Source: Thermospira aquatica (GTDB lineage: Bacteria > Spirochaetota > Brevinematia > Brevinematales > Thermospiraceae). Taken from it: 64,000 nucleotides of DNA. Under the pieces are notes generated by a model. That model did not search any database. It was not told the DNA's origin and worked only from the letters and a program-made list of their open reading frames with translations. Location of the stretch: the NCBI RefSeq assembly GCF_023525255.1, contig NZ_CP073355.1, positions 310,001 to 374,000 of the forward strand, written 5' to 3'. The position numbers were made by a program, and so were the translations under genes. Shown piece by piece: positions 7,651 through 27,356 of this stretch (positions are counted from its first letter, which is position 1; each line of letters begins with the position of its first letter).

Positions 7651-7686
7651 GTTGGTTGGAGGGCGGAGGGGGGGGGAAAAGCCGAA

Positions 7687-7707
7687 ACCCCTGCGTCTTG
7701 CAGGGGT
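7687..7707 (+). other. Hairpin before gemA-like gene
   Basis: An ACCCCTGC/GCAGGGGT stem with a short loop in the 95-base gap between the Gam and GemA genes, preceded by a run of nine G. No T-run follows, so it is more likely an mRNA-stability or translation element than a terminator. Confidence 0.4.
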
Positions 7708-7745
7708 CTGTGGGAGATAGCCTACCCACACTGAAGAGGCAGGCC

Positions 7746-10112: not shown

Positions 10113-11590
10113 TAAATAGCAGCTCCAACTGCTATAATTCCAGCTACAATTAAAAATATTGGATTAGCTAATAAAGAAGCTGTAAAAGCTTTTACTCCTG
10201 TTGTGAGGAGTGCAAATCCTTTTACACCAAAAGCACTGGCTATTGTCATGGCTTGTTGAGCTCTATTCCATGCTTGAGTTATTCCAATTAAAGCAAGGAT
10301 TTTCCCAATAAAAATTTTTATGTATTCTGAATAATATGCAAACTCTTTTATAAACATTGCTCCCATCCCAGTTTTAGTAATAGTTGTAACTGTTGCAAGA
10401 ATACCTATAACCGTAGCCAGTCCCATAATTCCACCAATTAACATTGCAATTGTGCCAGAAATAGCTGGATGTTTTGACACAAAAGAACTTACACTTGCCA
10501 AAATAGGATTTATAATATCAAGGAGCTTACTTAACGCCCCAACAAAATGTGTCCCTATTGAAGCAGATAATAGTTTTATGTTATTACCAAAAATTTTTGA
10601 TTTTATAGCAAAAACATCTTCCATTGCTTTTTGAGCGCTTTCGAGTTTTCCTGTGGCATTTGCTACTTGCTTGTAGCTTTCTTTGAGTTTATCAAGCTGT
10701 CCTAATAACAGAGCAATACCCCGTGAAGCCTCCTGACCAAAAGCCTTATTAAGAGCGTCCTGCATTTCAATAGCCGACATACCCTCTGTAGCCTTTTTGA
10801 TGTTTTCCAGTGTCCCGATAAAATCAAGTCCACCTTCCGCATTCTGAACAAGAGCAAAGCCTAAAGACTCACTTGCTTTGGTCATTTGTGTCACAGCATT
10901 GGCAAAGGATGTGCCAGCCATAGACCCTTGCAAGCCCACACTGTTGAGCATACCCACAACGGTGTTCATTTGCTCAAACGAAATTTTTGCCGCAAGGGCT
11001 GAAGCTGACGCATATTTTAACCCCTCTGTGAGCTGCCCGAGGTTAGTAATCTGAAAGGTATTCTGAGTAACGGCAAGCACATCCCCGAGCCTTCCCATCT
11101 CTCCTGCTACATCCCTTGTGTTGTCGCCAAAATTATTATAAGCAAGTGCAAGGAGATTTGCGGCTTCGTTGTTGTCCCCCATTGTTGCCGTCGCAAGAGC
11201 TAATGCTTTTCGTGTCCCCTCTATTGCCTGTATATCGTTTAATCCTGCTGAGCTCATCTGATAACTTGCAGAAAGAAACTCTTCAATAGACTGACTATGC
11301 ACTGCCGACCACTGAGTAGCTGCAGATTTCATTGCTTCAATCGATTTATTTAGTCCACCCATTGTTGATGTTACAACAGTTCTAAGTGGTGCTGTAGCGG
11401 AGTCAATACTTGAGGCAGTATCAACCATTTTCTTTGTTAAAAGAGCAAAAGCACCACCGACAGCAAAAGCCCCAAGCTGAAGATTTTTTAATCTATCAAT
11501 CTGTAAATTTGTAGCAGATGTTATTTTCCTTATCGTTGAAGTTGCCTGGTCAATCGCCTTAAAAACTATAAATGCCTGTAAAGGGGACAT
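10113..11590 (-). pseudogene. Tail tape-measure protein, 3' truncated by IS
   Basis: The first ~492 residues of a phage tail length tape-measure protein of the TP901/Mu type. ATG follows GAGAGGAGA. An N-terminal coiled region is followed by the conserved core VVTSTMGGLNKSIEAMKSA, ...YQMSSAGLNDIQAIEGTRKALAL..., ...LALAYNNFGDNTRDVAGEMGRLGDVLA, then two or three hydrophobic segments (residues 365-395, 415-440 and 470-495) that in this family enter the host membrane during DNA ejection. The last ten codons are IS sequence (stop at 10076). The full gene would normally be followed by tail and baseplate genes, which are absent. Confidence 0.85.
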
Positions 11591-11747
11591 TTTCTCCTCT
11601 CACTTGTCACTTGATTTTTTTTGTTTTTGCTGTTATACTTTTTTCTATGACTATCAAGGACATTTTTCTTCTTTTCTCCTTGTGGTGTGGATTTTTTTCG
11701 CTTTTTGCTTTCATCTTTATAACCATAATAAGGCTTTTTAAGAGATT

Positions 11748-12211
11748 TTAAACTTTTTCTCCAAAAGCCTTAACTATTGCTTTTGCTAAAACATCAATCT
11801 GTCTTTTTTCAATCCACACTGCCTCAGCAAAGCTTTCAATCAGTTCCTGTGTCGAGAGTTTTTCTATATCTCTTTTTGTATAGAATCTTGCCATTGCTTC
11901 CATGAGGCGAATTGGATTTTTTTCAATCCTCTCAACCTCCTTTTCTATTTTTCTGCTATCAAAAAATTTTCGTTAAATCCCACCTCTTCAAAAACCTTGT
12001 TAAAAATTGCCGGTAAAGCTCCGGGCTTTCTCTCTAAAAATTCCGAAAGCGATTTTTTGTCTTCACAAAGGTTCAACACAGCTGTCTCCATTATTGTTGA
12101 GATATTCCCCTGCTTTGTTGCAAAATCATCAAAGAGTTTTTTTACTTCTGCTTTTGTCGGTCTTCTAAACTTAAATTCAATTTCTCGGTTTGTTATTTTT
12201 ATGAAATCCAT
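11748..12211 (-). CDS. Tail assembly chaperone GT fusion by -1 frameshift
   Basis: The zero-frame protein (12211-11945, 88 residues from the ATG after GGAGAG, beginning MDFIKITNREIEFKFRRPTK) is a tail chaperone G-like protein: a short beta start followed by helices. Before its stop lies the heptamer T TTT TTG (11966-11960 on the minus strand), a canonical slippery site read in zero frame as TTT TTG. A -1 slip there gives an open extension through KEVERIEKNPIRLMEAMARF and a helical segment to the TAA at 11748-11750. Paired tail chaperones linked by -1 slippage between the tube and tape-measure genes are known across long-tailed phages. A possible 39-codon ORF (11726-11607) sits in the remaining gap before the tape measure but has no ribosome binding site. 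Confidence 0.72.
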
Positions 12212-12212
12212 A

Positions 12213-12659
12213 TTACTCTCCTTCACTTGCACTTACAGAGTCATGTTTAATATCCTCTAAAATAACAAAATCAAGTTCAACTTCCATTTTCTTGTCGCCT
12301 TGAGAAGCTTTATTGCTCTTCTTTGTCCACTTACATCCTATTAGCTTTACAGAATGTAGTGGCTCAAACTCATTTGCAAAAACAAGCACAATATTAAATG
12401 GAGAGGCATTAAAAATTCCGTTTTTTGTCAAAAGATTTAGCTGTGAATATGCCTCAAGTGTTATAGTCATCTTTCCTTCAGCTTTCCAATTGCCCGTGCC
12501 AAAGCCAATAGGCTTGTTACCTGCACCATAGATAGGTTCAACTTCCTGTTCCTCATTCCAATCAATTGATCCAACGCCAATTATACCTGTCGGGACACTT
12601 CCAGGATATATAATTGTTAAATCAGCCCAATCATACATTTTGCCGTTTATTGTTATCAT
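12213..12659 (-). CDS. Tail tube protein (Mu gpM-like)
   Basis: A 148-residue protein directly after the sheath gene, where contractile-tailed phages encode the tube. It is mostly beta: MITINGKMYDWADLTIIYPG, a segment IDWNEEQEVEPIYGAGNKPIGFGTGN typical of the Mu gpM family, and a final strand pair around KMEVELDFVILEDI. Length fits the family. The stop is two bases from the start of the tail chaperone gene. Confidence 0.8.
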   Translation of the reverse strand: MITINGKMYDWADLTIIYPGSVPTGIIGVGSIDWNEEQEVEPIYGAGNKPIGFGTGNWKAEGKMTITLEAYSQLNLLTKNGIFNASPFNIVLVFANEFEPLHSVKLIGCKWTKKSNKASQGDKKMEVELDFVILEDIKHDSVSASEGE

Positions 12660-12668
12660 TTTATCCTC

Positions 12669-14033
12669 CTATTCTGTTTCTGTTGGGTTACTATATTTAA
12701 AGCTAATATAGTTAGAAATTTTTCTAACAATAGGCAATCCATAAAGAGTATATTGAATTGTAAGACCATTATTTACAACATCCTGCCCATCTGGAATTAC
12801 TATTTCAAAGTTGTCTATTTCATTTGGAACAGCATTTTTCATCTGGTTAAGAGTTTGAATTAAGTCAGCCTTGATATACTCAAGCATAGCTTTATCAAGT
12901 GAAGTGTGAAGATGTTTTAAAGCAGTTTTTCTAATAAGCCTTATTGCCTTATGCACAGTTCTCGATACCTCAAACCATCTATAATCACTCGAATCATCTG
13001 CCATACTTCTCCCGTTTGCCCATCTGTATATTTTCTCGCCTGCATACTTACGAATGACAATATAGCCTGCGTCATTAAGTGTTTTGCCTATGGCATCTGT
13101 CCAGCCATCTGGAAGTGTAACATTAAGAGCAAAATCAATGTGCCCAATACTCTGATTCACCCTTGCCCTGGATAAATCACCAACCAGTAAGCCAGAAAAA
13201 TTCTTTTTTCCAAACCCAGCCACAACATGCACCCATCTATGAGCAAAGCTTTGTCTCTGAGTAAGAAGATAGCTTACCCAATCATCAATGCTTTCATCTT
13301 CGTTAGGAAGTCTTGTCTCTGTTACGAATATAGTCGGGCGATGGTCATTAAATAGCTCATCTGCCTTTGCTCCAAAAGCAGCCCAATGAACGTTATCTGT
13401 CTCCTGTGCTATCCAGACAAATTCCGTGGCAACTTTTTCAAGCCCTGCCTGGCAAGCGTTCATGAGAGCAGAAAGACTTGACTTAGCCCCTTTCAGCTTA
13501 AAAGAGTATCTATCCTTCTCAACAAAAGAATTTTCCGGTTGAGTACCTTCTGAAAAAGTAATTTTTACACCACTATCTGCTAATGTAACTTCCCCAGACA
13601 AAGGAATTGTAAATACATCAGAAAAACTTTCACCGCCATCAAGAGAATATTTTGCTGTAGCTTCATTTAATCTTCCACCAGATACGATTTCAATCACGAC
13701 ATCAGCGTCAAAGAGCGGATTACCAGTTAAATTGTAAATTGCTGTTCCTGTTCCCTCATGTGTTACACTTCCCTTACTTCCATCCACATCTGGAGTAGAA
13801 GGAACAACGACAAAAGTAGCGTCATCTTTTGCACGAGAGAGGGCGCCTTTTAACCTATCAACTAACTTGCCATTTCCGAAAACAGAGAGATCAGAATTTT
13901 TCCCTATGTAATATAGCTTCCCAACTTCACCAGTCGAACATGGACCTATAACAAGAGCAAAGGAATCTCCAGCGGGAGCAAGTCCACTTGTGCCATCAAT
14001 AATATATTCGTAGCTATTACCCCAGTCACTCAT
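12669..14033 (-). CDS. Contractile tail sheath protein (Mu gpL-like)
   Basis: A 454-residue sheath subunit. The N-terminal domain (residues 1-110) carries SGLAPAGDSFALVIGPCSTG and an LVDRLKGALSRAKDDATFVVVPS helix-strand unit. A variable beta domain (110-180) is inserted. The conserved core includes VWIAQETDN..WAAFGAKADELF, and the C-terminal domain has a DAGYIVIRKYAGEKIYRWANGRSM segment and a terminal strand (LTIQYTLYGLPIVRKISNYI) that joins neighbouring subunits in sheaths. It identifies the phage as a myovirus. Its ATG overlaps the stop of the preceding small gene by four bases. Confidence 0.85.
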   Translation of the reverse strand: MSDWGNSYEYIIDGTSGLAPAGDSFALVIGPCSTGEVGKLYYIGKNSDLSVFGNGKLVDRLKGALSRAKDDATFVVVPSTPDVDGSKGSVTHEGTGTAIYNLTGNPLFDADVVIEIVSGGRLNEATAKYSLDGGESFSDVFTIPLSGEVTLADSGVKITFSEGTQPENSFVEKDRYSFKLKGAKSSLSALMNACQAGLEKVATEFVWIAQETDNVHWAAFGAKADELFNDHRPTIFVTETRLPNEDESIDDWVSYLLTQRQSFAHRWVHVVAGFGKKNFSGLLVGDLSRARVNQSIGHIDFALNVTLPDGWTDAIGKTLNDAGYIVIRKYAGEKIYRWANGRSMADDSSDYRWFEVSRTVHKAIRLIRKTALKHLHTSLDKAMLEYIKADLIQTLNQMKNAVPNEIDNFEIVIPDGQDVVNNGLTIQYTLYGLPIVRKISNYISFKYSNPTETE

Positions 14034-14227
14034 TTTCTACCTCCATATTGTCTTATAAAATTGTTTAAAGCAGTATCAAACTGCTTTTTTTCAACACTTT
14101 TTCCCTGACGCCAGCCAGTAAATTGTAAAAATGCCTTCTTCTGCCATTCAGGAAAATCTACAGTTGCAAGAAGCTTTTCTATCATGAAGAGTTCCCTTTT
14201 TTGTTCTACTTTTTTCTCTTCATCCAT
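14030..14227 (-). CDS. Small phage protein of unknown function
   Basis: 65 residues, helical, charged (MDEEKKVEQKRELFMIEKLL..., ending NNFIRQYGGRK). It overlaps the sheath start by four bases (ATGA) and follows the tail terminator-like gene by nine bases, so the coding call is good. Mu has a short gene at the same place, but no sequence resemblance can be claimed. Confidence 0.6.
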   Translation of the reverse strand: MDEEKKVEQKRELFMIEKLLATVDFPEWQKKAFLQFTGWRQGKSVEKKQFDTALNNFIRQYGGRK

Positions 14228-14236
14228 TTATTCCTC

Positions 14237-14725
14237 CTATTTACGATATTCAACCTCTTCATTTATATCTGACATTCTGTCAAATTCTGTTTCCTCATAA
14301 ACACCATAAACACATTCGACTTCAATTACTGAAATATATGCACTCATTACGCTAATTGTGTCAGAATATTCTATATTCGTAGGATTTAAAAAAACACCCT
14401 GTTCGTCAATTTTGATATATCTTTTAAGTTTTTTCAAAAACTCATGAACCCACTTGCTTACAATAGTCTCATTTTCTCCAGCAAATCCAACCAAAACTGG
14501 CATTGTTATAGAGTATTTTCTTGTTACAAGTTTTATTTCTTCGTCCCCATATTTTTTTTCTTTTTCAAAAAGCTCTTTTACTGTGCTTTTGTCTGTGATG
14601 ATTTTACAAAATGTGGGAGTGTTATACTGGTTTGATTCTGCAAGGCTAAAATAAATATACTCCTCCGGTATTTCTGTTGCCTCTAAAACCACACTTTTTA
14701 GATATTCTTTCACTTCTCTCATCAT
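14237..14725 (-). CDS. Probable tail terminator protein (Mu gp37-like)
   Basis: A 162-residue alpha/beta protein (helix at MMREVKEYLKSVVLEATEIP, then alternating strands and helices, ending VIEVECVYGVYEETEF). Its place between the virion morphogenesis protein and the sheath, and its length, match Mu gp37/DUF1834, which caps the tail. No motif proves this; the call is mainly positional. It overlaps the previous gene by four bases. Confidence 0.5.
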   Translation of the reverse strand: MMREVKEYLKSVVLEATEIPEEYIYFSLAESNQYNTPTFCKIITDKSTVKELFEKEKKYGDEEIKLVTRKYSITMPVLVGFAGENETIVSKWVHEFLKKLKRYIKIDEQGVFLNPTNIEYSDTISVMSAYISVIEVECVYGVYEETEFDRMSDINEEVEYRK

Positions 14726-15222
14726 ACCTTCCCCAATTGACCATATAAAAATTTTGAGATTGTATCATCTGCTATTTTTTGTTCAAGCTCGCCAATGCCT
14801 AAAAACTTTCTTGCCCTACCAGAAAGTTTTCCAAGACCGAAATTGTGTGCTGCTGCATATTTTTTTGATATAGTATCATCACCTGCAATAATTCTTACAA
14901 TATTGCTGTTTACTTCATAATGCATTGAATCATAAAGATGTCGTGTGAGTACCAGTAAGTCTCCCGGATTTCTGCTACCCCGCTTTTTTTCTCCAATCTT
15001 TATGCCTTTACTTTTTCTTTCTGCATATTTTGCTGTTACAGAAGGCCAGCTTCTGCCATCCGGGTCCGTCTTTTCTTCAAAATGCTTATAGACAGCCTCA
15101 TTAATAATTCTCATGCCTATTTTTTTTAATAAACTTTCCTTTTCTTTATCAGAAATCATTCTAATCATCTTTCCTAAAGCAAGTTGAATTTCATTTGCAT
15201 TCTCGAGTTTTACTTCAATCAT
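14722..15222 (-). CDS. Phage virion morphogenesis protein (tail completion, Phage_tail_S type)
   Basis: 166 residues with the family pattern: an N-terminal helix bundle (LALGKMIRMISDKEKESLLKKIGMRI), then HFEEKTDPDGRSWPSVTAKYAERKSKG, in which F...tdPdG..W.pl...y...K is diagnostic, then LLVLTRHLYDSMHYEV and the strand/loop AAAHNFG before a final helix. In P2 and Mu-like phages the protein completes the tail for head joining. It is coupled to DUF1320 upstream through an overlapping stop/start. Confidence 0.82.
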   Translation of the reverse strand: MIEVKLENANEIQLALGKMIRMISDKEKESLLKKIGMRIINEAVYKHFEEKTDPDGRSWPSVTAKYAERKSKGIKIGEKKRGSRNPGDLLVLTRHLYDSMHYEVNSNIVRIIAGDDTISKKYAAAHNFGLGKLSGRARKFLGIGELEQKIADDTISKFLYGQLGKV

Positions 15223-15662
15223 TAAAACCCTCTCCAGAATTCATCATCAAAAATCCTTTTCTTTGTTTTAACAAGAACTTTCGGAGTAGTAACACTTTCT
15301 GTAGAAGAAATTTGTAGTCCTATGTCGAGCTCTCCTTTCATAACTCGTTCAAGCTGTCTTATAGCAAATTTGTAATCTTCTACAATCACTTGCTCTGGAG
15401 CTTTTTCTACAAATCCTTTTCTCATGACAATCTTATACTTCACAATTCTGATACATATATCTCTTATAAAAGCCGGAACAGGAGAAAGAGGAACTGAATA
15501 TCTATTCCTGATAAATCCATCAATTTCGCTTGTGGCGTTAGAAATAAGTTTTTCAAGCTTTATTTCCCACTCGTTTCCCTGTTCTCCACTATCCTGCAAT
15601 TGTGCTTTCACTTTAACTTTGTCCATCTGTGTAAAAATATCTTCTTTTGAACAATACAACAT
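15222..15662 (-). CDS. DUF1320 head-tail connector protein (Mu gp36-like)
   Basis: A 146-residue helical protein starting MLYCSKEDIFTQMDK seven bases after GGAGAG. The segment KLISNATSEIDGFIRNRYSVPLSPVPAFIRDICIRIVKYKI is the core of the DUF1320 family, a small head-completion or adaptor protein at the head-tail joint. It is the first gene of the leftward tail block and diverges from the lysis gene over a 92-base regulatory gap. In Mu this gene is downstream of the capsid and gp35 genes in the same direction, so its present separation from them is notable. Confidence 0.82.
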   Translation of the reverse strand: MLYCSKEDIFTQMDKVKVKAQLQDSGEQGNEWEIKLEKLISNATSEIDGFIRNRYSVPLSPVPAFIRDICIRIVKYKIVMRKGFVEKAPEQVIVEDYKFAIRQLERVMKGELDIGLQISSTESVTTPKVLVKTKKRIFDDEFWRGF

Positions 15663-15754
15663 AAACTCTCCATTTTAAGTTCATTAAAATTTTAATAAAA
15701 ATGCCAGACAAAATTTATATGAATTTTGTCCATTTTTCTACCTACAATAAGAGC
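15663..15754. promoter_or_regulatory. Divergent late promoter region with two palindromes
   Basis: Holds a perfect 9+9 dyad (GACAAAATT, six bases, AATTTTGTC; 15707-15730) and a perfect 14-bp palindrome ATTAAAATTTTAAT (15683-15696). Rightward, a TACAAT box lies at 15743-15748, only seven bases before the ATG, with no good -35. That is the form of a Mor/C-type activated promoter. Leftward, TTGTCT (15731-15726) and TTTAAT are roughly 17 bp apart. Confidence 0.55.
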
Positions 15755-16285
15755 ATGAAAAAGATAATAATTTACCGAGGAGACAACCCTCAGCCTTTTG
15801 TTCTTGCAAATGGGGATATATACGATTCGACCCTGGTTCTTTCAGAGGTAGAAACGGATATCTTTAACAAAACAGAGGAAAAAACCCTTTTTTACACAGG
15901 ATATGTGAATACAGATCACACAACCGGCTACAGGGGAGGCATCTTGGCCGAGGGGGAATACCTCGGTATTTGTGGGGTTAGACAAAACAAAAGAAAAGAA
16001 AAAGCCATCTGGCTTTACAATAAAAGGTATGGGATAGTCGACCAGAAAGAATTTCTGCCAGATGAGGCTTTTATTCTCCCGAGTCTTGTTCCCAATCCTA
16101 ATCATAATGGGAAAAAGATTATCCAGTATGTTCTAATCCATAGAGGGGGTCTAAGCTGGGACTTTAGCCAAGGATGTATCACCATCATGGGGGGGAATTT
16201 TGATGAGTTTATTAAATACTTTAAAGTTGGAGAATGTGCTCTTGTTATTCTAAAAAGGGGTGCTTTTTATAAATTTCCTGCATAA
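15755..16285 (+). CDS. Probable phage peptidoglycan-active protein with YkuD-like motif
   Basis: The chosen start (ATG at 15755, MKKIIIYRGDNPQP) avoids an upstream in-frame ATG at 15701 that lies inside the regulatory dyad. The 176-residue product is beta-rich. Its C-terminal third has VLIHRGGLSWDFSQGCITI, a His followed by S-x-G-C, which resembles the catalytic His and Cys of L,D-transpeptidase (YkuD) domains. Similar proteins head the lysis modules of some phages. It is followed by two or three membrane proteins, which supports a lysis role. Enzymatic activity is inferred only from this motif. Confidence 0.5.
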   Translation: MKKIIIYRGDNPQPFVLANGDIYDSTLVLSEVETDIFNKTEEKTLFYTGYVNTDHTTGYRGGILAEGEYLGICGVRQNKRKEKAIWLYNKRYGIVDQKEFLPDEAFILPSLVPNPNHNGKKIIQYVLIHRGGLSWDFSQGCITIMGGNFDEFIKYFKVGECALVILKRGAFYKFPA

Positions 16286-16294
16286 GAGGGAATA

Positions 16295-16522
16295 ATGGGA
16301 AAAACTTTTAGTTTAGGAGCAAAATTTATTTCGGTTTTTTTTGTAATAGGTGGTTTTTTCTTTTTTGTCTGGCAATCAAAGACAATCACCCCCGAACAGG
16401 CAAAGGCTTTAGTTTACATTGGGCTTTTTATAGGACTAATCTTTGCTCCTATCGATATCAGTTTTTGGCTTGAAAAATTCGTAAAAATGTTTAATGGAGG
16501 AGGCAGTGAAAAAAATGATTGA
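16295..16522 (+). CDS. Holin-like two-helix membrane protein
   Basis: 75 residues with two hydrophobic helices (residues 10-27 and 38-58) and a short charged tail (KFVKMFNGGGSEKND). Position directly after the putative lysis enzyme and before terminase suggests a class II holin that would permeabilise the inner membrane. There is no family-level sequence evidence beyond topology. Confidence 0.5.
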   Translation: MGKTFSLGAKFISVFFVIGGFFFFVWQSKTITPEQAKALVYIGLFIGLIFAPIDISFWLEKFVKMFNGGGSEKND

Positions 16523-16811
16523 GATAATGTTAACAATAGCTATTTTTGCTGGGGGTTTTGTGACTGGTTATTTTATCAAACCACAAGAAGTAAAACAGAT
16601 TACGAAAATAGAAAATCATTATTACATCGAAAATAAACAGGAAACTCAAACAAAGGTTTTTTCAGGACAGGTACAGTTGCTTATATCTGGAACAAATGCT
16701 TTTACAAATCTAAATGTAAACATCAAGGATGTTACAAATATCTCTATTTCTTTTTCAACCAATTCTAATTTAACTTTATCTCTGACAAACAGGCAAGGGG
16801 AGAAAAAATGA
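16506..16811 (+). CDS. Small membrane-anchored phage protein, possibly spanin-like
   Basis: A GTG start at 16506, seven bases after GGAGGAGG, overlaps the end of the holin-like gene. The 101-residue product has one N-terminal membrane helix (IMLTIAIFAGGFVTGYFI) followed by a Thr/Asn/Ser-rich periplasmic part predicted to be beta (NVNIKDVTNISISFSTNSNL). The topology would fit an inner-membrane spanin or a lysis accessory protein, but the coiled coil usual for Rz is absent. Function is uncertain. Confidence 0.5.
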   Translation: MKKMIEIMLTIAIFAGGFVTGYFIKPQEVKQITKIENHYYIENKQETQTKVFSGQVQLLISGTNAFTNLNVNIKDVTNISISFSTNSNLTLSLTNRQGEKK

Positions 16812-17143
16812 GAAAAAGTAATATTGCAGAAGTAAAAGAAGAACAAAAAAGGTTTAATGAAGATTTAACACAGCTTAAAATAAGCTTTGAAAAGCATTAT
16901 GAAAAACTCATCGCAATAGAAAAATATCTTTTACAGGCAATAGAACATCAAAATCAAATCCATTTAGCATGCAAGAATACTACAGAACAAAGACTACAAA
17001 AAATAGAAAAAAGTATTGAAGAACATGGACAACGAATGGGAAAACTCGAGCAAAGTATTGCAAAGTTTATTGGAGCAGCAACTTTAGCTGGAGCTCTGAC
17101 TGGAATTATAACAAGCATACTTTCAAAATTAATTTTGAAATAA
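16808..17143 (+). CDS. Phage coiled-coil protein with C-terminal membrane helix
   Basis: 111 residues, coupled to the previous gene by a four-base overlap (ATGA). Residues 5-80 are a charged coiled coil (RFNEDLTQLKISFEKHYEKL and KRLQKIEKSIEEHG-like heptads) and residues 84-108 are a hydrophobic helix (FIGAATLAGALTGIITSIL). Tail-anchored proteins of this type are common in phage lysis modules (hemolysin XhlA-like and DUF-type holins). The call is by topology and position only. Confidence 0.5.
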   Translation: MRKSNIAEVKEEQKRFNEDLTQLKISFEKHYEKLIAIEKYLLQAIEHQNQIHLACKNTTEQRLQKIEKSIEEHGQRMGKLEQSIAKFIGAATLAGALTGIITSILSKLILK

Positions 17144-17152
17144 GGATGGAAT

Positions 17153-17590
17153 ATGAATAAATGTCAATACACGGAAGAAGCAAGAAAGCTCTATGTTTTT
17201 GAAAACAAAACACTGACAGAAATTTCCAAACTACTCGGTATTAGCTTAAATACTCTCTCACGCTGGAAAAATACTTTCGATTGGGAACTCGATAAGCAAA
17301 AATACAACAGAAAAGTAAAAAACGTACTTGAAATACTTGAGACAAAAATTTCAGAACTTCTTGAAGAGCTCGAAAAGACAAGTGTCTTCGACATTAGTGA
17401 GGAAGATTTAAAAAAACTAAAAATTTTAAAAGAGACTTTATCAGCAATTAAAAAGAGTGAAGCAACGCTTGAAAACTATATAAAAGTTATGAACGACTTT
17501 GTAGATTTTATATCCCAGAAATATCCAGAAAGAAAAGAAGAACTCGCAAGAATTATACAGGACTTTTTCGATTATCTGGAGGCAAAGTGA
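17153..17590 (+). CDS. Phage terminase small subunit-like protein (DUF1804 type)
   Basis: 145 residues. Residues 7-45 form a helix-turn-helix (ARKLYVFENKTLTEISKLLGISLNTLSRWKN) that would recognise packaging DNA, and the rest is a long helical oligomerisation region (VLEILETKISELLEELEKT...). It lies directly before and overlaps (GTGA) the large terminase gene, which is the Mu gp27/gp28 arrangement. Confidence 0.75.
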   Translation: MNKCQYTEEARKLYVFENKTLTEISKLLGISLNTLSRWKNTFDWELDKQKYNRKVKNVLEILETKISELLEELEKTSVFDISEEDLKKLKILKETLSAIKKSEATLENYIKVMNDFVDFISQKYPERKEELARIIQDFFDYLEAK

Positions 17591-19092
17591 AACCCACTTA
17601 TAGGAAAAAAATAGAGCAGATACTTTCAAAACTGCAAACTGAAGTTTTGCCTTTTAACATAAACGAAGAAGAAAAGAAAAAACGCATTAATAAAGCAAGG
17701 GATGATTTTTTCAACTTCTTTGAGACATATTTACCACATTATAAAGAAAATGAATTTTCAACTTTCCACTATGAACTTTTTGAAATGATAGACACAAAAA
17801 GCTCCCCACCTCATGTTGTTGCTATAGCAGCTCCACGAGGTTTTGCAAAATCAACAATTACAAGTTTTGCATATGTAATCTGGAGTGTAATATTTAGAAA
17901 GAGAAATTTTATTGTTATCTTTTCTGCTACTGATGATCTTGCAAGTGATATAGTGAACTTTATCAGGCTCGAACTTTTATACAACAAAAGAATTGAACAG
18001 GATTTTGGAAAATTGCTTTCTGGAAGATTAAGAGAAAACGACTTTTTTGCAAACGGCGTAAGAGTCTTTTCAAGAAGTGCTAAACAGATGGCAAGAGGTT
18101 TTAAGTTCAGGCAATTCAGACCAGATTTAATTATCCTCGATGATATAGAAACAGATGAGGGAGCAAAAACACAAAAGACTACAAAAGAACTTCTTGGAAA
18201 GATTTTAAGAGGCATATACCCGGCTATGGCGCCGGAGGGAACGCTTGTGGTAATTGGAACAATTATAAAAAGAAGAAGTGCACTTGGTGAAATACTACTT
18301 AATACAGACCCTTTAAAACCCTGGGCAAACTGGCAAAAAAAGATTTATAGAGCTTTAAGTGTAAACATAAAAGGAAAATACGTCTCGCTATGGGAAGAAA
18401 GATTCCCGGTTAAAAAACTTTTAGCAATAAAAGAGACCATCGGCACAATAGAATTTGAAAGAGAATTTAATAACAAGCCAGAAGAAGAAACAAGCATTTT
18501 TTCAGAAAGCTGGTTTAAGTATTATGAAACATTGCCAAATGATCTGATAGTTGCGTCTTTTGTTGACCCAAGCGTTGAAGCCACTGGAGACTATAAAGCA
18601 ATCATTACAATCGGACTTGAAAAATCGACAATGCGATATTTTGTAATAGAAGTATGGCTTAAAAAAACATCTATAAAATCAATGCTTTCAAAAGTTTTTG
18701 ACACATATTTAAAATATAGACCTTCAGTAGTTGGTTTTGAAGCAAACGGATTCCAGAAAATCCTTGCGATGGAATTTGAAGCTCTTTGTAAAGAAGCAGG
18801 TATAAGACCACCACTAAAACTTGTTACTCACACAACGAATAAAAAAGAAAGAGTAATAAGGCTTTCAACACTCTTTGAAAGAGGGGCTATAATTTTAAAA
18901 CATCCAAAAGAAGCAAAAGACGACACACAAACACTGATCGAACAACTTATATTTTTTCCTGATAGCGACGTAAACGACGATGGTCCAGACTCACTTGAGG
19001 GAGCAATATCCTTACTTGAAAATTATAGCTCAAAAACCACATTCACACCAGTAAAAAGAAGAGCAGTTTTTGATATTTTAAGGGGGTTTTAA
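17587..19092 (+). CDS. Phage terminase large subunit (Mu gp28-like)
   Basis: A 501-residue DNA-packaging motor. Starts at GTG overlapping the small subunit stop. The ATPase domain has a Walker A-like AIAAPRGFAKSTITS near residue 80, an adenine/Q-like region IVIFSATDDLASDIV, and Walker B LIILDDIETDEG near residue 180. The nuclease domain begins with VASFVDPSVEATGDYKAI, an acidic RNase H-like strand, with a further acidic site near VGFEAN and a last one at DVNDDGPDSLEGAI. Mu-type terminases package by headful from the phage end into flanking host DNA. Confidence 0.88.
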   Translation: MKPTYRKKIEQILSKLQTEVLPFNINEEEKKKRINKARDDFFNFFETYLPHYKENEFSTFHYELFEMIDTKSSPPHVVAIAAPRGFAKSTITSFAYVIWSVIFRKRNFIVIFSATDDLASDIVNFIRLELLYNKRIEQDFGKLLSGRLRENDFFANGVRVFSRSAKQMARGFKFRQFRPDLIILDDIETDEGAKTQKTTKELLGKILRGIYPAMAPEGTLVVIGTIIKRRSALGEILLNTDPLKPWANWQKKIYRALSVNIKGKYVSLWEERFPVKKLLAIKETIGTIEFEREFNNKPEEETSIFSESWFKYYETLPNDLIVASFVDPSVEATGDYKAIITIGLEKSTMRYFVIEVWLKKTSIKSMLSKVFDTYLKYRPSVVGFEANGFQKILAMEFEALCKEAGIRPPLKLVTHTTNKKERVIRLSTLFERGAIILKHPKEAKDDTQTLIEQLIFFPDSDVNDDGPDSLEGAISLLENYSSKTTFTPVKRRAVFDILRGF

Positions 19093-19419
19093 TTTGGATA
19101 TGGTTTATTTTATTGTATTAAAAAGAAATACACAAAATTTTTATAAAAAAGTAAGCTTTCTAATGCCTTTGCTAATAGAAAAATACTCACAAAAATTTTT
19201 TGAACGCTTTATAAACAGCATTAAACGGTGTTTTTTATATCTCTTTACATCATATATAAATAAGAAAAATAAACATAATTATATACATATCAATAAGTTA
19301 AAAGGCAAAAAAACGAATTTTTTACAAGCATTTATAAAACGTTCAAAAGTCGTTCAATGTATTGATATACAATAAATTAGATGAAAAATTTTCACAAAAA
19401 GGCAAAAAAAGGAGGAAAA
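19093..19419 (+). other. AT-rich spacer between terminase and portal, with an inverted repeat
   Basis: A 327-base gap in an otherwise close-packed operon. An open frame of 93 codons (19094-19375, TTG start) is rich in Lys, Asn, Ile and Phe and looks non-coding. TTGAACGCTTTATAAA at 19200-19215 is repeated in inverted orientation at 19331-19346 with one mismatch, framing 147 bp. This may be a small inserted element or an RNA structure. Confidence 0.4.
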
Positions 19420-21990
19420 ATGCTGCGGAGAATCGAAAATGAGATTTATACAAGGCAAAAAGCATGGCAAAACATAAAATTTTTTAACGGTATTTTGCCA
19501 GACCCTGAACCAATTTTAAAAGCAAAAGGAAAAGATTTTTCTATCTATAAAGATATACTTTTTGACAGTCATGTTGACGCATGTATTACTTCAAGAATGA
19601 GTGGGGTTCTTGCAAGAGAGTATGATATAGTTACAAGGTCAAGTAGAAGAGTAGACAAAAAACTTGTTTCTTTCATAAGAGACAACTTCTACTCTCTTGA
19701 TCTTGAAACTATTATGAAAAGCATTTTGAATGCCATTTACTTTGGTTTTTCTGTCTTAGAAAAAATATATTCAACCGATGGGAATTTTATCTACATTGAA
19801 AACTTGATTGAAAAACCCCAAGAATGGTTCGCATTTGATGAAGATAATAAGCTTATCTTCAAAAGTGCATTTAAAACTGAAAAAGTAGATGAAAATAAAG
19901 TTGAGCTTATACAACACAATGCAACATACATAAACCCATACGGCGATAGAAAACTCTCTAAAGTCTTCTGGCCAGTCTCTTTTAAAAGAGGTGGCATTAG
20001 ATTCTGGGTTGATTTTGCTGAAAAGTTCGGCAGTGTATTTCTTTACGGAAAAACAACAAGCGGGGAGAAAAGAGATGAGATGGCAAAAGCACTTGAAGAT
20101 ATGATTCAGAATGCTGTGGGAGTTTTTGAAAGCACAGATGAGATATATGAGCTAAACGTTGAGAAGGGTGGTTCAAGCGCTCTTTATAGTGATTTACTAA
20201 ACTTTTGCAATAGCGAAATATCAAAAAGCATTTTAGGCCAAACTCTAACAACAGAAGAAGGGAGAAGAACTGGAAGTTATGCACAGGCGAAGGTGCATTT
20301 TGAAGTCAGACAGGATATAATCGAAAGTGATTGCAAATTTGTAAAAAAATACATTGATAGAATTATTAGAAAGCTTGTGGATTTAAACTTCAAAGATGTT
20401 GAAAATTATCCAGAAATTATCTTCTATGTAAAAGAAAAACTTGATATAGACACTATAGTAAAACTAAAACAAATGGGCGTCAAATTTACAAAAGATTTCT
20501 TTGTAGAGAATTTTAATCTAAAATCAGAACAGTTTAGTGTTGACGAAGGTTCAACTGAAACTGAAACTGAAAACTTTAGCGATTTTTTTGAAGAAAGCGA
20601 ATATGAAGAGGTGATAAAAGAGGAACGGCGTATTGATGATTTTGTAAATAAAACTTTCAACGATTTTAAAAGTTCTTTTGAGTCATTTTTAAACGATGTT
20701 AATAATGCCATAAATGATAGTGAAAACTATGATGAAGCAATTTCAAAGCTTTTAAAAACATTGGGAAAAGAAAGAGATTATAATCTGGTTGGCAAGCTTT
20801 TACTTACAATTGATCTTTTAACAAGAAATGAACTCGCAAAAAGCTACAACTTTTCAGAAAAATATGTAAATGACCAGATAAACTTTCTGAAAATGAAAGT
20901 CCCGCTTTCAAAAGATGATTACAATAAACTTCCCGATAAATACAAAAATTACGGATTTACTGTAGCAAGGTATCAGGAAGAAGACAAAGTTGCAGAAGTA
21001 TTAGATAAGCTGATAAAAGCAAAAGAACATGGGCTTTCTTACAAAGATTTCAAGAAAAGCATCGGAAAAGTAAAAATAGATGATTCTGTGTATTTTCAGA
21101 ACGTGCGAAATGCTCAGATGTCAGCAAAATATCAAATGCTAAAAGAAAACACAGACATATATCCATACTGGCAATATGTAGCAATAATGGATGGAAGAAC
21201 AAGACCATCTCACGTACAGCTAAATGGAAAAGTTTACAGGGCTGATGATCAAATATGGAACACGATTTATCCCCCAAATGGTTTTGGGTGTCGATGTACC
21301 GTTCGTCCACTTAGTGAAGAAATGATAAAAGAAAAAGGGCTAAAAGTAGAAGATCATCCACCAGATTTTACACCAGATGAAGGATTTAATAATGTGGGGG
21401 AAGACTTGAAATGGATAGAAACAAAACAAAACGAAGCTGTGCAAGAAGAAAAAGACAAAGGAATTATTGGAAAAAGGATAGAATTAAAAAACCTCATAAA
21501 AAAAGAAGGATATAACAACCCAGAACTTTTAATCACTCCTCCAGAAATAGACGAGGCTAAATATAGAGACAAAAATTATCTTCATCAGCTGATAAACTCT
21601 TTCTGTAATCAATACGGCTTTTCTAATACCATCGTCGATATTACAGATTATCAGGGTAAGGTGATAAAATTAAACTACAGAGAATTAGTGCAACACATAG
21701 TAGAGGATTCAACAGATGCAAAAGATTTTGTTAGGAGAACAAAAAGATTAAGATATATTCGTTTTATTCCAGAAATACTGAAAAACCCTGATAGCGTTGT
21801 TGCAAAGATCTACGTTAAAAAACATGGGGATTTCAGAACCAAAGTAAGTAAGCAATATGTAAAAAAAATACAGGATAATGGAAAAGAGATTTTTATTCTG
21901 TTTGCTACTAACTATGACAGAGAAAGCCCAAATTATAGAGGAGCAACACTTTATTTTCCCTTAACTGTAGAGGGATGGATCATAAAATGA
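19420..21990 (+). CDS. Portal (DUF935) fused to Mu-F head morphogenesis and a nuclease-like C-terminal domain
   Basis: The start is the ATG at 19420 after AAAGGAGG; an upstream in-frame ATG at 19381 has no such site. The 856-residue product holds three parts. Residues 1-420 match DUF935 portal proteins (Mu gp29): ILFDSHVDACITSRMSGVLAREY, GFSVLEKIY, RGGIRFWVDFAEKFGS and ILGQTLTTEEG. Residues 540-680 match Mu F: RNAQMSAKYQMLKENTDIYPYWQYVAIMDGRTRPSHVQLNGKVYRADD and an FGCRCTVRPLS end. The last ~150 residues (IVDITDYQGKVIKLNYRE..., ILKNPDSVVAKIYVKKHG) resemble the Barnase/EndoU/RelE-like nuclease domains appended to phage Mu-F proteins. In Mu, portal and F are separate genes. Confidence 0.8.
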   Translation: MLRRIENEIYTRQKAWQNIKFFNGILPDPEPILKAKGKDFSIYKDILFDSHVDACITSRMSGVLAREYDIVTRSSRRVDKKLVSFIRDNFYSLDLETIMKSILNAIYFGFSVLEKIYSTDGNFIYIENLIEKPQEWFAFDEDNKLIFKSAFKTEKVDENKVELIQHNATYINPYGDRKLSKVFWPVSFKRGGIRFWVDFAEKFGSVFLYGKTTSGEKRDEMAKALEDMIQNAVGVFESTDEIYELNVEKGGSSALYSDLLNFCNSEISKSILGQTLTTEEGRRTGSYAQAKVHFEVRQDIIESDCKFVKKYIDRIIRKLVDLNFKDVENYPEIIFYVKEKLDIDTIVKLKQMGVKFTKDFFVENFNLKSEQFSVDEGSTETETENFSDFFEESEYEEVIKEERRIDDFVNKTFNDFKSSFESFLNDVNNAINDSENYDEAISKLLKTLGKERDYNLVGKLLLTIDLLTRNELAKSYNFSEKYVNDQINFLKMKVPLSKDDYNKLPDKYKNYGFTVARYQEEDKVAEVLDKLIKAKEHGLSYKDFKKSIGKVKIDDSVYFQNVRNAQMSAKYQMLKENTDIYPYWQYVAIMDGRTRPSHVQLNGKVYRADDQIWNTIYPPNGFGCRCTVRPLSEEMIKEKGLKVEDHPPDFTPDEGFNNVGEDLKWIETKQNEAVQEEKDKGIIGKRIELKNLIKKEGYNNPELLITPPEIDEAKYRDKNYLHQLINSFCNQYGFSNTIVDITDYQGKVIKLNYRELVQHIVEDSTDAKDFVRRTKRLRYIRFIPEILKNPDSVVAKIYVKKHGDFRTKVSKQYVKKIQDNGKEIFILFATNYDRESPNYRGATLYFPLTVEGWIIK

Positions 21991-22000
21991 TTGTGATAAT

Positions 22001-22040
22001 AAAAAAGGCTACCCTTTCCACATGTGTCAAAAGGGTAGCC
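22001..22040 (-). terminator. Intrinsic terminator of the minus-strand small RNA
   Basis: An 11-bp perfect stem (22040-22030 with 22017-22007, GGCTACCCTTT/AAAGGGTAGCC) followed by six T on the minus strand (22006-22001). There is no T-run in the plus direction, so it acts leftward. Confidence 0.88.
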
Positions 22041-22127
22041 CCTCAACGGGCACCGATACGGTAGGAGGCTTGGGCTACCGCCGCTCCACTACAGGATTAA
22101 TCCCCCAAGCGGGACTCCTGTAGCTTC
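22001..22127 (-). ncRNA. Structured small RNA with loop-loop complementarity
   Basis: A transcript of about 127 nt, predicted from a promoter at 22162-22134 and a terminator at 22040-22001, filling the gap between the portal-fusion gene and the protease gene but on the opposite strand. Hairpin 1 has an 8-bp stem (22123-22116 with 22096-22089) and a 19-nt loop. Hairpin 2 has a 6-bp stem (22080-22075 with 22064-22059) and a 10-nt loop. GCTTGGG in loop 1 (22110-22104) is the exact complement of CCCAAGC in loop 2 (22074-22068), so a kissing interaction or pseudoknot is possible. A competing 4-bp helix lies within loop 1. No reading frame with a start and ribosome binding site is seen. The RNA family was not recognised. 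Confidence 0.78.
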
Positions 22128-22133
22128 ATATAT

Positions 22134-22162
22134 ATTATCGCACAAAACGGGAAAAAAGTCAA
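22134..22162 (-). promoter_or_regulatory. Sigma70-type promoter of the small RNA
   Basis: TTGACT (22162-22157) and GATAAT (22139-22134) with a 17-bp spacer on the minus strand. It is one of the best promoter matches in the window, and predicts a start near 22127. Confidence 0.82.
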
Positions 22163-22201
22163 GTATTTTGTGAAAAAAAATCTCAATAAAAGGAGGTAAA
22201 G

Positions 22202-23284
22202 ATGAAAGTCACAAACGCTAGCTGGATACCTGTCTTTAAGGCGGGCAGGCATGTAGACGCTTCAGGCAACACTCGCACCTTTACTGAGGCTGATCTGGAT
22301 ACCATCATCCAGAAGTACAAAGAGAGTGGCCATGAAGCTCCTATCGTCATCGGTCATCCGACGACCAATGCCCCTGCCTATGGATGGGTATCTGACCTCA
22401 AGAGAGTAGGTAAAACTCTCTTTGCTCAGGTCAAAGACGTGGCTAAAGAGTTTTCTGAATGGGTGGAGAAGGGTCTGTACAAAAAAAGATCCATCAGTCT
22501 CTACCCGGATCTTACTCTAAGACACGTTGGGTTTCTGGGTGCTATACCCCCCGCCATCAAGGGGCTTCCTGATGTTTCTTTCTCGGAGACGGGGAACATC
22601 TCTTTTGAGTTTCAGGATCAGGATCTAGAGACCAGGTTTGGTACACTATCACAGATTCTACGCAGACTCAGAGAATGGTTCATCGCTCAATTTGGAACAG
22701 AAACAGCCGATGAGCTCCTCCCAAACTATGCCGTAGAAGAAATAGGAAAACCCATGACGGTGGAGGAAGAGACGGAGGAGAGAGAATTTTCAGAAAGGAG
22801 GAAAAATATGGAAGAACTGCAAAAAATGAGGCAAGAACTCCTGGAAAAGGAGAGAAAACTCAAGGAGTATGAGGCTCGAGAAGCCCAGAGGCAGAAGGAG
22901 AAAAAACAGCAAAAAATCGTTGATTTTGCAGAAAAACTTATCAAGGATGGAAAACTTCTCCCAAAATTTAAAGAAGACTTTATTACCTTTGCAACAGCAC
23001 TCGATAATTCAGAAAAACTTGAGTTCAGCGAAGGCAAAACAGCAACACAGCTTGAAAAGTTTTTTGAATTTGCTCAAAATCTCCCTGAACAGATAAGTTT
23101 CAAAGAAGCTTATTTAAAGAAAAAAGAAATAAGCTTTTCTGAAGACAGAGATCTTCTTGACGAGCAAATAAGAAATTATGCAAAAGAAAAAAACATAACT
23201 TACAAAGAAGCTTTACAAAAAATCTTAAAGGAGGTGTTCTTTTTCATTTATTCTGTCGTAAATTTTGCATTTAGTTTGTCATAA
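22202..23284 (+). CDS. Mu I-like prohead protease/scaffold
   Basis: A 360-residue protein with AAAGGAGG before its ATG. The N-terminal protease half matches Mu protein I: WIPVFKAGRHVDASGNTRTF, IIQKYKESGHEAPIVIGHPT, AYGWVSDLKRVGKTLFAQV, KRSISLYPDLTLRHVGFLGA and KGLPDVSF; the His of VIGHP and the Ser of RSISLYP are the likely catalytic residues. The C-terminal half from residue 203 is a coiled-coil scaffold with its own internal start. The final ~15 residues (FFFIYSVVNFAFSLS) look unlike the family and follow an embedded AAAGGAGGTG, suggesting that phage sequence ends near 23240 and the capsid gene that should begin there has been replaced. Confidence 0.85.
   Translation: MKVTNASWIPVFKAGRHVDASGNTRTFTEADLDTIIQKYKESGHEAPIVIGHPTTNAPAYGWVSDLKRVGKTLFAQVKDVAKEFSEWVEKGLYKKRSISLYPDLTLRHVGFLGAIPPAIKGLPDVSFSETGNISFEFQDQDLETRFGTLSQILRRLREWFIAQFGTETADELLPNYAVEEIGKPMTVEEETEEREFSERRKNMEELQKMRQELLEKERKLKEYEAREAQRQKEKKQQKIVDFAEKLIKDGKLLPKFKEDFITFATALDNSEKLEFSEGKTATQLEKFFEFAQNLPEQISFKEAYLKKKEISFSEDRDLLDEQIRNYAKEKNITYKEALQKILKEVFFFIYSVVNFAFSLS
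22808..23284 (+). CDS. Internal in-frame scaffold protein (Mu Z-like)
   Basis: Inside the protease gene and in the same frame, AAAGGAGG (22795-22802) precedes ATG at 22808, giving a 158-residue protein MEELQKMRQELLEKERKLKE followed by a long charged coiled coil. In Mu the scaffold Z is made from an internal start of gene I in just this way; the fit of site, frame and helical content supports the same here. Confidence 0.7.
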   Translation: MEELQKMRQELLEKERKLKEYEAREAQRQKEKKQQKIVDFAEKLIKDGKLLPKFKEDFITFATALDNSEKLEFSEGKTATQLEKFFEFAQNLPEQISFKEAYLKKKEISFSEDRDLLDEQIRNYAKEKNITYKEALQKILKEVFFFIYSVVNFAFSLS

Positions 23285-23401
23285 ATTTAAAAAAAATCAA
23301 GCGGTAGAGAATTTACTACCGCTTTAAAGAGGGTTTAAATGTTTTTTAATATACTTCTTTATGCTCGTTTGGTAAACGGGTTAAATACGTGTCTATTGGA
23401 C
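23285..23401 (-). terminator. Leftward terminator in a short segment of unknown origin
   Basis: AAGCGGTAG/CTACCGCTT form a 9-bp stem (about 23299-23325), followed on the minus strand by eight T (ending near 23289). The rest of the 117-base segment up to the IS end has no gene and does not resemble the start of a capsid gene. Confidence 0.6.
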
Positions 23402-24671
23402 CATTGTGTCAAGAAAATTGTGTCTAGTCATAGGATAACCTCGCTGTGAATATTTTCTTTGGTGTATGAGTGTTGCTCACGATAGAGTTGAAAGTAATAC
23501 TCCCAATTTTTTAACTTTCTTTTTAAGAACTTCTCATTTTGGTATCTTAATAACAGGTAAAGATATTTCTCAGCTGAAGCCTCGCTTTGACACATTTCCA
23601 TTGTTTTTAATCTCCTTTTAAGTTCTTTAAAGAGTCTTTCCAGGGCATTGTTTGTATACACCATGCTTCGTATTCCTTCAGGTAATTCCATGTAAGTGAA
23701 TATATTCTCTCTTATTGTCAAGAGGTTATTCATTAAGTTGGGATAGATATTTTTCCATTTTTGTGTAAATTTCATAAACAATTGTTCTGCCTCCTGTTTG
23801 TCTTTGGCATGAAATACCTCTTTTATTTCAGTGGCAATGATATTTCTGTGTTGAACTCTCACTTTAGCCAGTATGTTTCTCATGACATGGACTACACAGG
23901 GCTGATACTTCGTGGGGATATATCTCTGTTATGACGTTTTTTCATACCACTTAAGCCATCAGAGACAATAAAATGAATCTGTTTGACACCTCTTTCTCTT
24001 ATATCTAGCAAAATTTCCCGCCAGTTATAAGCACTTTCCATGCCTCCTGGCAGGTAGTATCCTAAAATCTCCCGTCTTCCCTCAGGTGTAATGCCTATAG
24101 CTACATATATTGATTCATTTTCTACCCTATCTCTCTGATAGGAAACACCATAGCATCCAGAAATACCACGGCATATTCTTCCATGAGAGGGCGACTACGC
24201 CACTTCTGAATCTCTTCTATGCCTACCTGGCTTATCCTTGAGATGTTAGCATAAGAAATCTTTATTTCATAAAGCTCTTTTAAAACTTCTGCTATCTTCC
24301 TTGTTGACATTCCTGATATCAACATAGCCCTGATTAATGCATCTAAGTCTTCTGTGATGCGTTTGCGATAGGGAAGAAGGGCACTTTTAAATCCATTATC
24401 CCTTGTTCTTGGAACACGTATGGCTGTAAGCTCGCCAAAAGCTGTCTTTAAATCCCTTTCGTAAAAGCCATTGCCTTTTGTGGGTGGATTGTTTTCCAGG
24501 TAAATCTCTCTTTCCTCTTTTAACATACTCTCTAATACTTCCTTGACAATTGGTTTGAATAGCTCTAAAATATTCTTCGTCTCAATCATATCTGGCCTCC
24601 TGTGATAGTTTTATTTATATTATCACAGGAGGTTATCTTTTTCCTACCAGACACAATTAAGTATACACTGC
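23402..24671 (-). mobile_element. IS256-family insertion sequence, right copy (inverted)
   Basis: Same element as 8846-10112 in the opposite orientation, with identical ends and only small indels and a few substitutions between the copies. Its outer end abuts the terminator of the host ABC transporter operon, so the prophage right end has been removed up to this point. Confidence 0.88.
23428..24589 (-). pseudogene. IS256-family transposase, frameshifted (right copy)
   Basis: The N-terminal 155 codons (24589-24122) and the last 151 codons (23883-23428, from MRNILAKVRVQHRN to the end) are intact, but the middle is broken by small indels near 24137, 23945 and 23915. These differ from the indels in the left copy; merging the two copies restores one full frame running through VVFLDAMVFP, HFIVSDGLSGM and KYQPCVVHVMRN. 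The positions lie at short A-runs and simple repeats, which is suspicious for sequencing or assembly error. Confidence 0.85.
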
Positions 24672-25730: not shown

Positions 25731-27356
25731 TTAGTATTCCACATTCTTCTCGGTGAAGATCCACTGGAGCAACGTCACCAGCATCACCAATGCGAACAGC
25801 ACAACCGCTATAGCCGAAGCATAGCCCATCTTTCCCCATTTGAAGGCATTACTGTACACATAGAACACAATCGTTGTCGTTCCACCAGCAGGACCTCCTC
25901 CCGTGAGAGCGTACTGCGTACCAAACGCCTGGAACCCGCCAATAATACCCATCACGAGGATAAAGAAGTTAGTAGGACTGAGAAGTGGCCAGGTGATATT
26001 CCAGAACTGCTGCCAGGAACTTGCCCCATCAATCTCCGCTGCCTCATAGAAATCCTGAGATATTCCCTGAAGACCGGCAAGGTAAAGCATCATGTTGTAT
26101 CCTGCTCCCTTCCAAACATCCACCACGATAATAGATACTTTGGCCCAGGTCTTATCTGCCAGCCAGTTAGGAGGATTCACGATACCTATCGTTCGCAAAA
26201 TACTGTTAATAATACCATACTCCGGGTTCAAAAACCACCTCCACACCAGTGCCACCGCCACAATGTTTGAAATCACCGGCAAAAAGTACATCACACGAAA
26301 AGCCACAATCCCCTTGAGAGGCATATTCATAGCCAGAGCAAGGATCAAAGACACCATCATTCCTAGGGGAATACCAAGTAAAAAGATAAACGTGTTGAGC
26401 AGATACTCTTTAAAACGCGTATCGCGGAAAAGAATCTCCTCAAAATTTCTGAGTCCCACAAACTGAAGTCCATTGTTCCCTGTTGCCTGCACAAATTTGA
26501 TATAAGCCTCTACGCCTTCTTTTGCCGGGTTAATCTGCATTTTCATACCAATCAAAGAAGTTTCACTCCCCATTTCGCCATTTGCTGTAGCCTCCAGACC
26601 CGCCGACACTGCCTCATCTTTTCCTGCAGGAATCGTCACAGGAGTAGAAAGTTCAAAAAACCATTCGGAATCTCGAGGAGCCTCAGGAACCTTCACAAAC
26701 ATATCTGCCTGGATAATCGTCCCCGCCGGAATCACTACCTGCTTATCAAGACGACTTGCCACAACTATTTCCTCTCCTGGTTTACTGAGATCAAGCCCTA
26801 TGGACACACCATCCACAGGGGTTGCCCATCGAACATTTGCCGCCATAATCTCTGTTCTTGAGAAAAAGAGATCCCCTTCTTTAATAAAAGAAAGTTCTGC
26901 TGGCAACTGATCTCTTACAAGATCGAGGATCTGACCCTTTTTGTTCGTATACGAAGTCCACTGACGAAGGGCATTCATATCCCCTACTGAAACAATCTTG
27001 TTTTCCGGAGAAATCACCACATCCTGCATCAATCTGTAGGAAATCGGAACCTGAAGATCACGAAAACTTACTTTTCGAGTCTTTACCGAGAGTTTTGTGC
27101 CTGCAGGAATCGTAAGGGCTGTATTATTTTCCCCCGTCGTACGTTTAAAAGCCACGCGAATCTTTGCAGGACTGGCATACGAAAGCCCATCCCATTCGGT
27201 AAAAGCAAGATAGAAAGTAAAAAAGATAGGGAAAAAGGTAATGAGCAAAAACCCTATCAAGTTCGGAAGCAAAAACCCCCATGCAGTCAAAGCCTCTTGT
27301 AACCGCTTTTGAAAGATATACTTGCGGTTCTCTTTGGATACTTGAATCTGCGCCAT
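25731..27356 (-). CDS. Carbohydrate ABC transporter permease (MalF family) with large periplasmic insertion
   Basis: A 541-residue partner of the MalG-type permease. Residues 25-55 are the first membrane helix (WGFLLPNLIGFLLITFFPIFF). Residues ~60-290 form a soluble, beta-rich periplasmic insertion with repeats of an IPAGT motif (LTIPAGTKLSV, VVIPAGTIIQA, VTIPAGKDEAV). The transport core follows, with the EAA loop YEAAEIDGASSWQQFWNITWPLL near residue 460 and TM helices ending LVTLLQWIFTEK. E. coli MalF also has a large periplasmic P2 loop that contacts the binding protein, but most family members of about 300 residues do not, and this loop looks different. A TTGACA promoter lies upstream. Confidence 0.86.
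   Translation of the reverse strand: MAQIQVSKENRKYIFQKRLQEALTAWGFLLPNLIGFLLITFFPIFFTFYLAFTEWDGLSYASPAKIRVAFKRTTGENNTALTIPAGTKLSVKTRKVSFRDLQVPISYRLMQDVVISPENKIVSVGDMNALRQWTSYTNKKGQILDLVRDQLPAELSFIKEGDLFFSRTEIMAANVRWATPVDGVSIGLDLSKPGEEIVVASRLDKQVVIPAGTIIQADMFVKVPEAPRDSEWFFELSTPVTIPAGKDEAVSAGLEATANGEMGSETSLIGMKMQINPAKEGVEAYIKFVQATGNNGLQFVGLRNFEEILFRDTRFKEYLLNTFIFLLGIPLGMMVSLILALAMNMPLKGIVAFRVMYFLPVISNIVAVALVWRWFLNPEYGIINSILRTIGIVNPPNWLADKTWAKVSIIVVDVWKGAGYNMMLYLAGLQGISQDFYEAAEIDGASSWQQFWNITWPLLSPTNFFILVMGIIGGFQAFGTQYALTGGGPAGGTTTIVFYVYSNAFKWGKMGYASAIAVVLFALVMLVTLLQWIFTEKNVEY

Follow-up and report, generated by a model that had tools for sequence, protein, structure and literature searches.

An orphan structured RNA gene between two head genes of a Mu-like prophage in the spirochaete Thermospira aquatica

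In the genome of Thermospira aquatica, two plus-strand head genes of a Mu-like prophage are separated by a gap of 211 nt (positions 21991-22201), which raises the question of whether the opposite strand of this gap encodes an RNA of its own and what such an RNA might do there. To our knowledge, structured non-coding RNAs have rarely been described in Mu-like phages or in deep-branching thermophilic spirochaetes. The gap lies within the 64,000-nt stretch analysed here (contig NZ_CP073355.1, positions 310,001 to 374,000), referred to as the window, and all positions are those of the window unless another locus is named. A previous inspection of the letters, made without database searches (the sequence-only reading), had proposed an unrecognised small RNA gene with complementary hairpin loops, antisense-oriented within a phage late operon. 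Our comparative analysis revealed that the gap contains a real structured RNA gene, the features of which are collected in Table 1, and its placement on the minus strand between the two head genes proved exact to the coordinate.

Table 1. Features of the RNA gene and its flanking genes, in window positions
Feature	Position	Strand	Remarks
Small RNA gene	22001..22129	minus	Predicted transcript about 22127 to 22001, based on promoter, comparative structure and terminator
Conserved core, 84 nt	22046..22129	minus	Gapless in four copies; alignment column n is window position 22130-n
Promoter TTGACT-17-GATAAT, TGTG before -10	22134..22162	minus	Nearly invariant over 34 nt in four copies
A/T-rich tract upstream of -35	22163..22188	minus	Putatively UP-element-like, as judged from sequence
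Hairpin P2	22089..22123	minus	Lower stem 22123-22116/22096-22089, 8 bp, six double-change pairs
P2 upper part		minus	Upper stem 22113-22111/22104-22102, bulge 22099-22097, hexaloop 22110-22105 GCUUGG
Joining strand UNGAGCG between hairpins	22082..22088	minus	Six of seven positions invariant
Hairpin P3	22058..22081	minus	Stem 22081-22075/22064-22058, 7 bp, four double-change pairs; 10-nt loop
Kissing partner CCAAGC in P3 loop	22068..22073	minus	Pairs with 22110-22105
Closing stem P1, 3' strand	22046..22052	minus	Partner 22129-22124
Intrinsic terminator	22001..22040	minus	11-bp stem 22007-22017/22030-22040, 12-nt loop, U-run 22006-22001 (six U)
Flanking gene, Mu portal and gpF fusion	19381..21990	plus	C-terminal PBECR2 nuclease-like domain
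Flanking gene, Mu-like head maturation protease (gpI)	22202..23284	plus	

The locus and the distribution of the RNA

The prophage of the window was recognised by its Mu portal, Mu F, terminase RNase H-like domain, Mu Gam and Mu transposase. In its part at 8541-24589, two IS256-type copies lie in opposite orientation (8928-10086 and 23428-24589), and the segment between them is inverted relative to a related prophage of Brevinematales bacterium Ch60. Given this inversion and the loss of all of the major capsid gene except its C-terminal end (8541-8915, minus strand), the window prophage is defective. Head genes do flank the RNA, but the supposed late operon is a fragment of a defective, inverted prophage and not an intact operon.

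Several other elements of this region deserve mention in their own right. The PBECR2 nuclease-like domain that ends the portal/gpF fusion (21640-21925) is possibly a toxin-like domain on a head protein, and an ABC-transporter permease-like ORF (25731-27356) has a middle part that, to judge from its sequence, resembles an inserted, unrelated domain. A type II hammerhead ribozyme (7680-7748, plus strand) separates the Mu Gam-like gene of the prophage from the early gene that follows, and another occupies the equivalent position in the prophage of Ch60 (locus L171, 3145-3225, minus strand), with scores of 39.3 and 52.0 bits, respectively, both above the Rfam gathering score. Hammerheads have already been described in prophages (PMC3088659), and our literature search found no paper naming them in Mu-like phages.

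Blast of 100 related genomes gave clear matches to the RNA in Ch60 only, two of them on contig C27 and the third on contig C55. A covariance model run over 393 Spirochaetota genomes (the window genome, Ch60 and 391 others) recovered these three copies and that of the window without any further convincing match, and a search of genome contigs with one pattern likewise left Ch60 as the only convincing relative. Weak covariance matches in other spirochaetes were rejected, the two best lying inside open coding frames and the rest being at chance level for 393 genomes. The window genome, a single 2.5-Mb contig, belongs to the same genus as Ch60, and the third genome of this genus (G001) carries neither the RNA nor the head protease. 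The known family thus comprises four copies spread over two genomes, and a single metagenome-assembled genome supplies three of these copies.

Among viruses, no relative of the RNA emerged from IMG/VR loci searched with loose patterns and by protein guidance or from blast of phages and plasmids, no related RNA was found in 89 viral loci with relatives of the head protease or terminase, and the portal alignments gave no viral relative. Gaps of similar size exist beside the head genes of other Mu-like phages, none of them with the RNA. A covariance search with all families of Rfam 15 gave no match (best chance E-values 1.2 or worse), so that the gene is indeed unrecognised, and no paper on the RNA was found in the literature.

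One Ch60 copy (locus L012) has the same position as the window copy, in a Mu-like prophage that is less damaged than that of the window and has retained genes for repressor, transposition, head and tail; the portal proteins of the two prophages are 55% and the proteases 61% identical. The other two Ch60 copies (locus L011) are chromosomal, lying 1.2 kb apart upstream of ileS. Judged from ORF sequences, the 20 kb around them hold no recognisable phage head genes, and searches around ileS in the window genome and in G001 found no RNA. A comparison at the DNA level showed nothing in common beyond repeat-like stretches and the RNA cassette, a discrete unit of about 147 bp which occurs three times in Ch60 with different flanks and once in the window genome.

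The chromosomal locus of Ch60 also contains repeats of other kinds. Interspersed GCTGAAACAnnGTnATAGCC repeats are found in both orientations (L011, 3232-3697), and ORF translations suggest that similar ones are present near ileS in the window genome (L172). Two 47-nt repeats spaced 66 nt apart lie downstream of a chromosomal RNA copy, near a truncated cas1 (L011, 2687-2799). A CRISPR link of the chromosomal copies was considered and rejected, the 66-nt-spaced repeat being unlike the real CRISPR repeats of the genus; those beside cas1 in the genus bear, by eye, no resemblance to the RNA.

Promoter, fold and covariation

The minus-strand promoter of the sequence-only reading is present, with TTGACT at 22162-22157, a 17-nt spacer and GATAAT at 22139-22134, and is the best match of its region (10/12). 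Across the four copies the 34-nt promoter stretch is identical at 31-33 positions, compared with 55 of 84 positions for the cores of the window and L012 copies, and T/A-rich tracts similar to the one upstream of the window promoter also precede the L011 and L012 copies. In Ch60 the same promoter, with one mismatch, precedes a coding gene, and it therefore looks like a strong promoter of host type. The strong terminator with its six U was confirmed as well. It stands directly 3' of the core in the window copy only; the three Ch60 homologues lack it at that place.

The four 84-nt cores (window and three Ch60 copies) align without gaps, and in the structure of Table 1 standard pairs fill 96.7% of the pair cells of the four copies. 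Changes on both sides with the pairing kept affect 13 of the 30 pairs, against an average of 3.9 in shuffles and 0-3 in slid controls; apart from those in lower P2 and P3, there is one such pair each in upper P2, in the loop-loop helix and in P1. Conservation of the stems and of the complementarity between the loops is thus borne out by the covariation check on the four copies. The pair cells of P2 and P3 include eight G-U and no A-C pairs, which indicates that the minus strand is the functional one. The letters of the stems vary between the copies, and those of loops, bulge and joining strand are kept. Since the two chromosomal Ch60 copies differ from each other in P3 by compensating changes, the fold appears to have been kept after duplication.

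Loop 1 (GCTTGGG, 22110-22104) and loop 2 (CCCAAGC, 22074-22068) are exact 7-nt complements, as had been noticed earlier, but the helix backed by comparison comprises 6 bp (GCYUGG/CCARGC) and not 7, as the G that would be the seventh (22104) is engaged in a pair of hairpin 1. All six pairs are kept in the four copies, and one of them, columns 22-60, changes from C-G to U-A between copies, which is a single change. As a bare duplex, the kissing helix has a predicted energy of -8.8 to -11.4 kcal/mol, and two predicted hairpin loops with at least six complementary bases arose in only 2 of 1000 dinucleotide shuffles.

The minus strand folds better than all of 200 shuffles (z = -4.6), a score to which the terminator contributes. 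Folding of the window copy as a single sequence misses P3, the second of the two hairpins read from the letters, yet this hairpin is supported by the comparative evidence; on P3 the energy fold alone would have misled. RNAalifold, applied to the four copies with no structure supplied, recovered both hairpins and an upper stem closing exactly the hexaloop GCYUGG. P1 forms with all six pairs in the L011a and L012 copies and with four of six in the other two, the window copy included. Comparison of the four copies thus shows the strand, the conservation of the promoter and both hairpins; the kissing helix and the closing stem are less strongly supported. P1, the weaker stem and the least certain element, would make the RNA a kissing-loop three-way junction.

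A possible mimicry of 16S rRNA was also examined and rejected: although three copies match 16S by CCGCCTGGGGA, about 2% of shuffled cores attain at least 11 nt, and CCGCCTGGGGA is missing from the window copy.

Proposed action and its alternatives

The best explanation as a whole, to which we lean tentatively and with rather less than full conviction, is an autonomous prophage small RNA that is transcribed in the lysogen, acts in trans and binds a protein. A Mu-like prophage would carry a cassette of a strong host-type promoter and the 84-nt RNA, whose two hairpins would be locked by the 6-bp kissing helix and loosely closed by the third stem into a rigid three-way junction. Transcription in the lysogen would be constitutive and independent of the phage late programme, and the pre-folded RNA would act in trans, a putative protein partner binding the invariant unpaired 5' GAAGC, the joining UNGAGCG and the AUNAA bulge side, to the benefit of the lysogen or the prophage. 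No action through pairing with head mRNA would be involved. The fold has good support, whereas we infer the action in trans and the binding of a protein from the conservation pattern and the placement of the copies alone. Variable stems combined with constant loop, bulge and joining letters point to a pre-folded binding RNA and not to an antisense RNA, and of the two designs raised by the sequence-only reading, the tertiary fold is favoured over exposed antisense loops, as the loops pair with each other. Lysogenic conversion, also suggested there, is plausible as a putative role. Protection of the lysogen by small RNAs of prophages has precedents such as svsR, whose action may also involve RNA-binding proteins (PMC12803456).

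The earlier suggestion of an antisense regulator of the surrounding operon fared less well. Transcription from the minus-strand promoter, or pairing of the RNA with head mRNA, might lower or process the portal/protease mRNA in the lysogen, and in both prophages the RNA does lie antisense inside the run of head genes; moreover, the L012 core ends at the portal stop codon with no strong terminator after it, and readthrough there would run antisense to the portal. The window RNA, however, is purely intergenic, ending before the portal stop and starting 75 nt from the protease start with no ribosome-binding site covered, while the two chromosomal copies of the four, with the same fold, have no head mRNA beside them as a target. 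Both points make simple antisense control unlikely, and neither compensatory pairs nor loop-loop pairing is required by a full-length antisense RNA.

An RNA acting in trans by base pairing, with the unpaired UNGAGCG or GGRAUNAA directed at mRNAs of the host or of competing phages, would agree with the RNA's own promoter, the intrinsic terminator in the window and the conserved unpaired stretches, and host-targeting prophage small RNAs are known (svsR, PMC12803456). We regard it as improbable, as there is no conserved long single-stranded seed and the most conserved loop is taken by the kissing helix. A cis-acting 5' element of a longer transcript, be it a put-like antiterminator, a leader or a riboswitch, would account for a fold that begins at the predicted transcription start and, in the window, for an aptamer-like fold followed by a terminator; as none of the four copies has a sense gene downstream, we find this explanation quite improbable.

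The chance of a phi29-like packaging (prohead) RNA, in which the loops would pair between molecules to form a ring on the motor, appears slight. Its topology of closing stem, two complementary-loop hairpins and three-way junction is the same, the RNA is encoded among head and packaging genes, and pRNAs share little sequence (PMC5340915). Nevertheless, the phage is Mu-like with an ordinary large terminase and no phi29-type motor was seen; the all-family Rfam search, which would include phage pRNA, gave no match to a phi29-type pRNA model; the chromosomal copies have no head genes; and none of the 89 viral head protease or terminase loci has a related RNA. Very little likewise speaks for a palindromic mobile DNA unit with an incidental RNA fold, as the discrete cassette of about 147 bp found three times in Ch60 with different flanks might suggest, since G-U without A-C pairs, the conserved promoter and the one-strand terminator indicate RNA, an unsystematic look revealed neither inverted ends nor a target duplication, and the window genome has one copy only.

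Beyond the prophage small RNA with a protein partner that we prefer, a more ambitious reading, which we find doubtful, would see here a new class of phage-borne structured RNA, with the kissing three-way junction as a protein-binding scaffold and the promoter-plus-RNA cassette spreading between Mu-like phage and chromosome for use in conflicts between phage and host or between phages, or else in packaging. At present this is an orphan structured RNA of narrow distribution, more than ordinary and not a new category. The comparatively supported tertiary contact, the RNA's own promoter and the occurrence of both phage and chromosomal copies make its structure, partner and phenotype directly testable, and an immunity, packaging or regulatory RNA would be a new function for a phage group usually described by its proteins only.

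Comparison with known systems

The RNA shares with phi29 pRNA a three-way junction with two hairpins of complementary loops, and both are phage-encoded near head functions; it differs by its Mu-like phage, the ordinary terminase, a 6-bp loop helix with a hexaloop and the extra chromosomal copies. Its likeness to the purine riboswitch aptamer is one of topology only, a closing stem and two near-equal hairpins with loop-loop pairing, with no common core sequence, Rfam match or regulated gene downstream. Because neither model matches and the phage is Mu-like, the RNA was assigned to neither family.

Type III toxin-antitoxin RNA (ToxI) and its phage mimics are likewise structured RNAs of chromosome and phage, whereas the present RNA lacks tandem repeats and has a different fold; ToxN (PF13958) gave no match in the three genomes of the genus, and the control genomes gave none either. 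Like svsR and DicF, it is prophage-encoded and possibly active in the lysogen, but it is unrelated to them in sequence and is distinguished by the conserved kissing three-way junction and the duplicate chromosomal cassettes. Finally, the kissing hairpins of ColE1 RNA I and RNA II resemble it in the full pairing of short hairpin loops, whereas here both loops belong to one RNA and covary together.
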